DNA of 42,521 nucleotides from Candidatus Cloacimonadota bacterium (lineage in GTDB: Bacteria; Cloacimonadota; Cloacimonadia; Cloacimonadales; TCS61), in contig JABGOP010000001.1 of the NCBI GenBank assembly GCA_018645365.1, positions 235,024 to 277,544 on the forward strand. The letters run 5' to 3'. Numbering within the stretch: position 1 is the first letter of the stretch; the number at the start of each line of letters is the position of its first letter. A model generated the notes under the pieces. The model did no database searches and was not told the origin of the DNA. It saw nothing but the letters and a program-made list of their open reading frames with translations. Of the stretch, positions 29,376 through 32,971 are shown piece after piece. Both the position numbers and the translations under genes were made by a program.

Positions 29376-30200
29376 ATGAAAAAATTATTTGTAATTTTAA
29401 CGGTAGCTTTAATTTTTGTAGGTTGTGAAGTTGTGGAGAAGTCTGAGATGGGTGGACATTTGTGGATTGGTGATTCAACATTTGTGCACACAACGGTAGA
29501 TGCAACTCAGCTTCTTGATGGGAATTTGCGTGCAAAGGTAGATGGTGAGTGGCAAGATTTTACACTCTTGGAACTACCGCAAGAATTTTTGGAATGGAAT
29601 ATCGAATATCGCAAAGAAGTAATTCAAGGAATTATGAAGGGAGATATGCCCAATCTAGAAGGTCCACACAACGGTATTATTGCTACACACGGGTATAAAA
29701 GAGGCGATTCACAATTTCGTGTGAATAATGCTATCAAAGGGCTCGGTTTTTTACCAAAACCAGAGAACATCGAAGAACTAATTCAGCGCATGAAAGACAC
29801 AAGTGAAGAGGGTTTTCCAGTAAAACTTGATGTTTTAATGGACTTCTATAACAATGCGGAAGATATCTTTGATATGACAAAACAGGTCTCATTGGAACTT
29901 TATGCAAATCCAAAAAGGGGAACGCAAACTTTTCTCAATCAAATGACAGACCCTACTTCAGTAATCGTTTTTATGGCAATTCCAACTTATAAGTTGAAGA
30001 CAATTGCTTATTTACTTCATCCAAAAAATCCAAATTTAACAGAATATGAAAAAAATGTGGTAGAATATATAAACTTGATTCACAGTTATTTTCACGGCGA
30101 CTTTCCAGTCGATTTTACAGCCGCCATTTACAATGTGGTAGAAGTTTATGATAGTTCACCCGGAAAACAAAAAGGAATGGGAACAAGAATTGTTCCATAG
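29376..30200 (+). CDS. Lipoprotein of unknown function, 274 aa
   Basis: The N-terminus has a lipobox signal (FVILTVALIFVGC), so it should be a lipid-anchored envelope protein. The rest is mixed helix and strand with no repeat I can see. It has no recognised domain. Notable stretches are MGGHLWIGDSTFVHTTVD and EGPHNGIIATHGYKRGD, which contain spaced histidines. A ribosome site AAAGGGG precedes the ATG. The MarR-type regulator begins six bases after its stop, so it may be part of the same redox-responsive transcript. Confidence 0.8.
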   Translation: MKKLFVILTVALIFVGCEVVEKSEMGGHLWIGDSTFVHTTVDATQLLDGNLRAKVDGEWQDFTLLELPQEFLEWNIEYRKEVIQGIMKGDMPNLEGPHNGIIATHGYKRGDSQFRVNNAIKGLGFLPKPENIEELIQRMKDTSEEGFPVKLDVLMDFYNNAEDIFDMTKQVSLELYANPKRGTQTFLNQMTDPTSVIVFMAIPTYKLKTIAYLLHPKNPNLTEYEKNVVEYINLIHSYFHGDFPVDFTAAIYNVVEVYDSSPGKQKGMGTRIVP

Positions 30201-31575: not shown

Positions 31576-31608
31576 AAAAACACCGCAAGATTTTGCGGTG
31601 TTTTTTTA
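31576..31608 (+). terminator. Intrinsic terminator
   Basis: AACACCGCAA, loop GATT, TTGCGGTGTT, then a run of T. It follows the exported thioredoxin-like gene by about 17 bases. Confidence 0.93.
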
Positions 31609-31679
31609 TTAAAATAAATATAAAAAAAACGAACCATCTGATTTTTGAATTGTTATAAAAGTAGACGAAGGAGAAAATA

Positions 31680-32906
31680 ATGCAAGCAAAAAAAATATTT
31701 GAAAAAAAAGTTATAGTGTTAATTCCACGCTTGAAATCGTTTATTAAAACACTTATTTTCGATGAAGATGCAGCAAATGATATTTTACAAGAAACACTGA
31801 TAACTGCTTTTACCAAAATTATCGAATTACAAGAACCATTTAATGTTTCTGGGTGGTTATTTACGATAGCAAAAAACAAATCTCTTAATTTTATTAAAAA
31901 ACAAAAAAGAACCATCAGGTTGGCTGAAATTCCTGAAAGATATTTTTCTGTTTTTAACGACAATAATATTGAAAGCGATGTTGCTGAACAGCAACTAATT
32001 GATTGCCTAAGCAAGATGTCGCATTCCTCAAAATATATTTTACAAATGAAATATTTTACTCATCACTCGATAAAAGAAATCAGTAAATTATTGCAAATGC
32101 CAGAGGGAACTGTGAAACGACGTCTTTTTGAGGCTCGGAGAAAATTAAAAAAGGAGATTATTATGAACAAAAATGAAAAATGGGATACAAAGAAAAATGC
32201 ACCTATTATTAAGATTATTCCTAAAAAAGAAAGTAATGTCAATTCTGTAAAGAAACTTGGTTATGGATTAAATTTTGGTGCTCCACTTGCTGGTATTGGG
32301 GATGTAGAAATTTATGAATCTTATGAATATCCAGGAAGAATTTTAATAAATAAATTTAAATCTGAAGTTGCAAGAAAAACAAAAATATTTGGAAAAGAAG
32401 TAATTGAGGTTGTTGATAAATCAGTTAATCAAAACACAAAAGTTTCTAAATATTTTTATTACACTATTGATGATGATAAGGTCTCAATTATATTCAGAAT
32501 AATGAATTTTTCTCAGAAACTAAAGATTGATTTTGAGACTGACGAATTAATGGAGCCCACTTGTATTAATTTGAAAGTAGGTGAATATGTAAATCCTAAA
32601 ATAAATGGAAAAAGTACCGTAGATGTAGTTGATTTAAAAATTGGGAATAAGCAATATACTAATGTTTTACGAGAAAGAGAAAGCTGTGATGATTATCACG
32701 GAAGGTGTTATGGTGAGTCATTTTATACTTCTGATGGTCGTGAAATACTACAACGAAATTATATCAGTAAAGATTGGAAAATGGGTGGATTTGTAACTTG
32801 GGAAAAATGGAAAGATGCTCCAGAAGTTGAATTTAAAGGAGAGCAATTTAGGTTATGGTTTGAGTTTATTTTAACTGAAAATTATAAAATAGATAATACT
32901 CTATAA
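31680..32906 (+). CDS. ECF sigma factor with a 240-residue C-terminal domain
   Basis: Residues 1-160 are an ECF-type sigma factor: region 2 with DEDAANDILQETLITAFTKI and GWLFTIAKNKSLNFIKKQKR, region 4 with LLQMPEGTVKRRLFEARRKLKK. From residue 162 the frame continues without a stop into about 247 residues of beta-rich sequence (YPGRILINKFKSEVARKT, CDDYHGRCYGESFYTSDGRE) that I do not recognise. An AAGGAG at 32151-32156 sits six bases before the in-frame ATG at 32163, so the C-terminal part may also be made as a separate protein. No anti-sigma gene follows. Regulon and signal are unknown; GAAGGAG precedes the main start. Confidence 0.85.
   Translation: MQAKKIFEKKVIVLIPRLKSFIKTLIFDEDAANDILQETLITAFTKIIELQEPFNVSGWLFTIAKNKSLNFIKKQKRTIRLAEIPERYFSVFNDNNIESDVAEQQLIDCLSKMSHSSKYILQMKYFTHHSIKEISKLLQMPEGTVKRRLFEARRKLKKEIIMNKNEKWDTKKNAPIIKIIPKKESNVNSVKKLGYGLNFGAPLAGIGDVEIYESYEYPGRILINKFKSEVARKTKIFGKEVIEVVDKSVNQNTKVSKYFYYTIDDDKVSIIFRIMNFSQKLKIDFETDELMEPTCINLKVGEYVNPKINGKSTVDVVDLKIGNKQYTNVLRERESCDDYHGRCYGESFYTSDGREILQRNYISKDWKMGGFVTWEKWKDAPEVEFKGEQFRLWFEFILTENYKIDNTL
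32151..32165 (+). promoter_or_regulatory. Internal ribosome binding site and in-frame ATG within the sigma gene
   Basis: AAGGAG at 32151-32156 with ATG at 32163-32165, in frame as codon 162, at the junction between the sigma factor and its C-terminal domain. It has the same quality as the true start sites nearby. It may allow separate production of the C-terminal domain, or be a remnant of two fused genes. Confidence 0.5.
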
Positions 32907-32931: not shown

Positions 32932-32971
32932 AGCCACTATTGATGTAAAAATCGATAGTGGTGCTTTTTTT
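32932..32971 (+). terminator. Intrinsic terminator
   Basis: CACTATTGAT and ATCGATAGTG pair (one G-T) around GTAAAA, flanked by AGC/GCT, followed by a T-run. It lies between the sigma gene and mutM. Confidence 0.85.

Follow-up and report, generated by a model that had tools for sequence, protein, structure and literature searches.

ECF sigma factors that carry regulatory extensions form a known class, for which the available part of PMC8999054 gives at least 26 groups, with 15 of them remaining to be studied. As far as the available parts of PMC8999054 and PMC3426412 describe them, ECF41, ECF56 and groups 205, 294 and 295 have a regulatory domain fused at the C-terminus and no anti-sigma gene, and the gene reported here is built in the same way. 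It also resembles IutY (ECF243) and ECF48/52/53, in which sigma factor and regulator are joined in one polypeptide and some of whose fusions are thought, in the same part of PMC8999054, to stem from an ancient fusion with an anti-sigma factor. Outside the sigma factors, SpaO/HrcQ of the type III sorting platform and Cas8b/Cas11b each yield a full protein and its C-terminal part, the latter from an internal start in the same frame, according to published abstracts and the part of PMC11899642 available. In the literature searched, no case of a sigma factor with an internal translation start was found.

The gene lies in the window, the whole stretch of 42,521 nucleotides that was analysed, from a Candidatus Cloacimonadota genome of 1.79 Mb in 59 contigs. 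Table 1 summarizes its features. The reading frame proposed in the initial annotation was recovered exactly, with its 408 amino acids, and the statement that the ECF sigma part is complete by residue 160 agrees with Pfam, where region 4 ends at residue 156. Regions 2 and 4 are separated by a gap of 25 residues and neither sigma3 nor sigma1.1 was found by Pfam, which is the arrangement of an ECF factor. It is the only gene between two terminator-like hairpins. Since the flanking genes encode a thioredoxin-like protein and formamidopyrimidine-DNA glycosylase, no anti-sigma gene adjoins it, as had been noted at the outset. With a 247-residue extension, unrelated neighbours and no adjacent anti-sigma gene, it falls into the class of ECF factors with extensions, and the extension may regulate the sigma part as a substitute for an anti-sigma factor.

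Table 1. Features of the sigma factor gene and its surroundings, in positions of the window.
Feature	Position	Strand	Remarks
Terminator-like hairpin, upstream	31576..31605	.	tool call on - strand; + strand also enters TTTTTTT
CGAACC, proposed ECF -35 element for autoregulation	31630..31635	+	
GTTA, possible -10 element	31652..31655	+	15-17 nt after CGAACC in 6/8 window-clade genes; uncertain
Shine-Dalgarno AAGGAG of full-length start	31668..31673	+	spacing 6 nt to ATG 31680
ECF sigma factor fused to C-terminal domain	31680..32906	+	408 aa, stop included
Sigma-70 region 2, residues 16-78	31725..31913	+	Pfam PF04542, E 1.1e-9
Sigma-70 region 4, residues 104-156	31989..32147	+	Pfam PF08281, E 5.3e-11
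Internal Shine-Dalgarno AAGGAG, codons Lys158-Glu159	32151..32156	+	spacing 6 nt to ATG 32163
In-frame ATG (Met162), proposed start of free domain	32163..32165	+	
C-terminal domain, proposed second product	32163..32906	+	247 aa; all-beta, LolA/RseB-like half-barrel in model
Terminator-like hairpin, downstream	32933..32962	+	hairpin prediction

Several genes that Pfam assigns to redox or oxygen defence surround the sigma gene between 28825 and 38423, namely glutaredoxin, MarR, OsmC, thioredoxin-like, rubrerythrin, flavodiiron-like (ODP/flavodoxin) and ferritin genes; in the homologues other genes stand alongside, and this setting may thus be irrelevant to function. A protein of 274 residues is encoded at 29376-30200; its start looks like that of a lipoprotein when judged by eye, and at E 1e-5 Pfam has no family for it. 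A shared gene neighbourhood was not found, as the flanks vary between most homologues, and context gave no function.

A sequence search found the domain in 6 of 98 genomes and a profile search in 7 of the 124 genomes of the window's phylum, the window genome being included in both counts. Within the phylum the domain is always fused, in frames of 391-413 residues, and the gene was not found in G001 and G002, which belong to the same genus as the window genome. Outside the phylum, a search of 386 genomes added a fused copy in G200 and a broken remnant in G271. This remnant (L036, 3288-4300) has a sigma2 part without recognisable sigma4, followed by stops and frame changes and then by the end of the domain. 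With a later profile, G235 and G372 were also found; in their phylum, represented by 16 genomes, 11 carry the domain, which is fused in 10 intact genes and stands alone in G397. Two rows were left out, L007, which lies on the same contig as L003, and that of G271, broken by its stops and frame changes. This left for comparison 18 fused genes that are intact, of which Cloacimonadota contributed 7, G200 one and genus g162 10.

The initial annotation had claimed that an AAGGAG and an in-frame ATG at the junction are as good as true starts nearby. Indeed, they equal the gene's own start both in the hexamer and in the 6-nt spacing. A third AAGGAG in the gene (32836-32841) has no in-frame ATG after it. 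To judge how often such a site arises, we took the 210 ORFs with a length of 150 codons or more that were kept from the 277,544-base contig. Their interiors contain 1102 in-frame ATGs, and for only one of these, codon 162 of the sigma gene, does AAGGAG stand no more than 15 nt upstream. In the ORFs of the same contig, 10 of 432 Lys-Glu pairs are spelled AAGGAG. Samples of other genomes gave 1/85 (G021), 1/66 (G043), 1/77 (G027), 1/59 (G018), 0/29 (G003), 0/80 (G113) and 3/97 (G200) interior ATGs with the hexamer; the single matches in the clade samples should be the junctions themselves, because the samples include the fused genes, and two of the three in G200 should be the adjacent ATGs of its junction.

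Homologues lacking the internal ribosome site had been named as the finding to look for against the proposal, and none occurs among the 18 intact fused genes: AAGGA with an in-frame ATG stands at the domain border in all of them, and the full AAGGAG in 16. In the window clade (n=8), the hexamer is AAGGAG in six genes, AAGGAT in G003 and AAGGAA in G113, with an in-frame ATG shortly downstream in each. The spacing is 6 nt in all seven Cloacimonadota genes, and the G200 junction has ATGs at 3 and 9 nt past the hexamer. In 6 of the 8 window-clade genes, the region around the site has less structure than 79-97% of the segments of its gene; in the other two (G021 and G027) it does not fall below the average. 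Since the second start is preserved across distant lineages of bacteria, it is probably used, and judging from this conservation a short product is very probably translated from it.

The region upstream of the gene bears on its expression. According to the available part of PMC3426412, ECF factors recognise a -35 element containing AAC and generally autoregulate. Such an element is present before the sigma factor's own gene in the form of GAACC, in a putative promoter, and GAACC stands 46-56 nt before the start codon in all 18 fused genes, while shuffled upstream regions contain it at any position in 2-16% of cases. The two-gene ECF arrangement of G260, too, has GGAACC 46-56 nt upstream. Given this conservation and the habit of ECF factors, self-activation of the sigma gene is likely. 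In g162, GTTA follows GAACC by 22 nt, a different spacing from that in Table 1, and so its assignment as the -10 element is tentative.

A search for a wider regulon with CGAACCN{15,17}GTTA in 8 genomes gave 47 matches (3-10 per genome) against 77 for a reversed-pattern control, so the promoter pattern is not enriched genome-wide. Of these 47 matches, 30 were given loci, and 10 of the 30 lie outside the kept ORFs. Five of the 10 are the promoters of the fused genes themselves; the other five (L057, L061, L066, L082 and L085) have no evident common target, the L061 match standing 78 nt before a 93-residue ORF. The site of G200 itself was tallied as inside an ORF, which had been read from too early a start.

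The identity of the C-terminal domain had to be approached through structure. Described at first as unknown, the domain (residues 162-408, a length of 247) is indeed without a family in Pfam, and a PDB sequence search gave nothing convincing. A weak NCBIfam match at E 0.06 and one match in a plasmid search at E 1 were both taken as chance. No match was found in phages and viral contigs, in BFVD at E<=0.001 or in Rfam. Structure prediction, recommended in the initial annotation, was useful in part: the domain alone, aligned with 7 relatives, gave a confident all-beta model (pLDDT 85.3, pTM 0.86), and the model of the full-length protein was poor (pLDDT 48) and was not used. Foldseek returned no PDB match at E<=0.001, the best being a YmcC-like protein with E 1.2e-3, probability 0.99 and low TM. 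Structural re-alignment (VIA) places the YmcC-like 3fzx at the top (Z 9.7, 4.2 A, 166 residues), followed by RseB (Z 9.6), MucB (Z 8.9) and LolA3 (Z 8.8). Many LolA chains lie at Z 7.5-8.2, the rows being mostly of LolA/RseB/YmcC type, and outer-membrane barrels follow at Z 7-7.4; values of Z near 8-10 are moderate. From this model the domain is probably a LolA/RseB-like half-barrel. Lipids and other hydrophobic molecules are common ligands of proteins with this type of fold. The export feature of LolA/RseB-like proteins is absent, the domain being fused to a sigma factor, and the stand-alone relatives have no obvious signal peptide by eye.

Our main reading, to which we give a probability of roughly 0.6, is an autoregulated one-gene system comprising a sigma-sensor fusion and a free domain from the internal start, the latter probably acting in trans. 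In this view one autoregulated gene would code for an ECF sigma factor and, attached to it, a LolA/RseB-like half-barrel located in the cytoplasm. Translation would begin at two places, the first yielding the complete sigma-sensor fusion and the internal ribosome site the half-barrel alone. Most likely, the half-barrel would bind a hydrophobic or other small ligand and exert control in cis on its sigma part. The free copy would come from that one self-activated mRNA too and would most likely work in trans, on the sigma surface or the ligand that the fused copy also uses, serving as an inbuilt brake or buffer that resembles an anti-sigma factor. This reading builds on the fusion, the conserved internal site, the stand-alone relatives and the upstream GAACC, all present in the sequences; from them we infer that two proteins would be made, that the domain would control the sigma factor, that it would have a ligand and in which direction control would run. 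For regulation of the sigma factor by the free domain in particular, we see the chances as about even.

A search for the domain as a separate protein, suggested in the initial annotation, was positive: such copies exist, their start corresponds to the internal Met, and five of them lie behind a separate ECF-like gene. Relatives of about 250 residues occur in G342 and G387 (profile comparison probability 97, E 9.8e-11). The domain gene is the next gene 3' of the ECF-like gene in G342, G387, G200:C16, G386:C263 and G260:C75. The stand-alone proteins start 9-17 residues before the motif P-x-[IV]-x-I, and the internal Mets of the fused proteins stand 7-14 residues before it. The partner in G260 resembles, by eye, a standard 169-residue ECF factor, that in G387 has only weak sigma matches in Pfam and NCBIfam, and that in G342 has no match in either. 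Of the ECF-like proteins that precede stand-alone domain genes, L041 3864-4673, L037 2755-3357, L051 4038-5033 and L052 1255-2094 show, by eye, long tails rich in Arg and Pro; L041 and L037 match sigma families weakly or not at all. These four proteins may represent a divergent sigma branch. Other copies, in G227, G397, G342:C20 and G386:C181, have no adjoining sigma gene, and the domain may therefore sometimes work apart from any sigma factor. Two more distant copies, L056 3344-4078 and G386:C181 (L053), lie near genes that by eye are DtxR-type-regulator-like and FeoB-like, and not near a sigma gene.

The main rival accepts two products and gives them a structural role, the free domain and the full-length protein forming a complex of fixed ratio as do the short forms of SpaO/HrcQ and Cas11. 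It draws on the same conserved internal start, and short products of this kind have been published for other genes, as abstracts and the available part of PMC11899642 record. Against it, copies of the domain occur without an adjoining sigma partner, and we regard it as unlikely. Half-barrels of this fold class, moreover, are usually monomeric ligand carriers, which likewise speaks against such a complex.

A second alternative is that only the full-length protein is made, the internal AAGGAG-ATG being a relic of the fusion or a by-product of the Lys-Lys-Glu that ends sigma4. In these proteins sigma4 ends in a stretch rich in Lys and Arg, and an ancestral two-gene operon would presumably have carried such a site. 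We account for the site differently on the basis of its codons. In the window clade, where AAA is generally preferred over AAG for Lys, Lys158 is AAG in all 8 genes, the only all-AAG column among 12 Lys columns common to at least 6 of the 8 genes, with the next best at 3/6. Glu159 is GAG in 6 of 7, level with Glu388 among 14 Glu columns. The ten g162 genes are 76-96% identical and have a variable linker (residue 181 R/G/K/T, 183 S/R, 184 M/T/I), yet AAGGAG with an ATG 7 nt later is invariant in all of them. Their Arg182 is AGG throughout, the sole such column among 39 conserved Arg columns. Of 82 interior ATGs in g162, 71 are without AAGGAG; the 11 that have it include codon 184 of L100, a neighbour of the conserved ATG. 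In g162 the site falls on the codons of R-R-S, about 8 residues further along than the K-K-E that holds it in the window clade. As the site is kept while the encoded residues change, selection on the nucleotides is indicated. This pattern, with the less used codons AAG and AGG invariant exactly at the site, is the one expected if a ribosome site is under selection; protein constraint does not readily account for it, and the full-length-only alternative is improbable. Least probable is that AAGGAG acts as a translational pause which aids folding, sitting as it does at the border of two domains, since this leaves unexplained both the invariant ATG at start-site spacing in a variable linker and the stand-alone proteins that begin there.

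To place the fused and stand-alone forms relative to each other, a tree of 24 rows was made, with midpoint root, some long branches and one row (F_L107) starting two residues early; G386:C263, G386:C181 and G342:C20 are not in it. The fused genes form two groups, one of the window clade with G200 and the other of g162, which are split by stand-alone rows on supported branches, and at least two changes between the fused and stand-alone states are forced. The tree would fit either two fusions or a fusion and a fission. We put forward more tentatively a stronger form of the main reading, in which positive autoregulation of the fusion is coupled to internal translation, so that every activated mRNA would make its own trans-acting regulator, and in which this arrangement would have arisen at least two times, with the internal start kept or rebuilt each time.

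When compared with the known systems, the gene differs from each of them in some respect. Among the extensions described in the available part of PMC8999054, none is LolA/RseB-like and none has an internal start, and it is by these descriptions, in which 15 groups are still to be studied, that the fusion is set apart from the ECF extension groups. The ECF41-type extension is SnoaL-like in the available descriptions, whereas here we have a 247-residue, all-beta, LolA/RseB-like domain in the model with a conserved internal start; no SnoaL family is among the Pfam matches to E 10 of 6 members, a comparison of sequence only. In IutY and ECF48/52/53 the extensions are membrane-linked or zinc-finger anti-sigma domains that are activated by proteolysis or expected to be so, as the available part of PMC8999054 describes them. 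Here, in contrast, the model is a beta domain with no helix of 4 or more residues, which speaks against a transmembrane helix, and the free form is proposed to arise through translation, not cleavage. The CXC feature of CorE-like factors (ECF238) is missing, there being no Cys in residues 79-103, and the all-helical TPR extension of ECF42 is not matched by the predicted all-beta domain (pLDDT 85).

RseB and MucB, with YmcC-like proteins and LolA, are among the closest solved folds (Z 7.9-9.6), and the titles of RseB structures name a negative regulator and sensor of the bacterial stress response. These two proteins are periplasmic and act on RseA/MucA, unlike the present domain, whose fusion partner is a sigma factor of the cytoplasm; no sequence relation between it and them was detected. 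The short forms of SpaO/HrcQ and Cas8b/Cas11b are structural subunits of complexes, unlike the regulator proposed here. The gene would widen the range of known sigma extensions by what is probably a LolA/RseB-like fold, and it offers a concrete, testable candidate for a fused signalling gene that retains control in trans. Fusion of sigma factors to regulatory domains is believed to have taken the place of separate anti-sigma proteins; the conserved internal start, if used, would mean that the separate protein was never given up and that the fusion keeps a free regulator.
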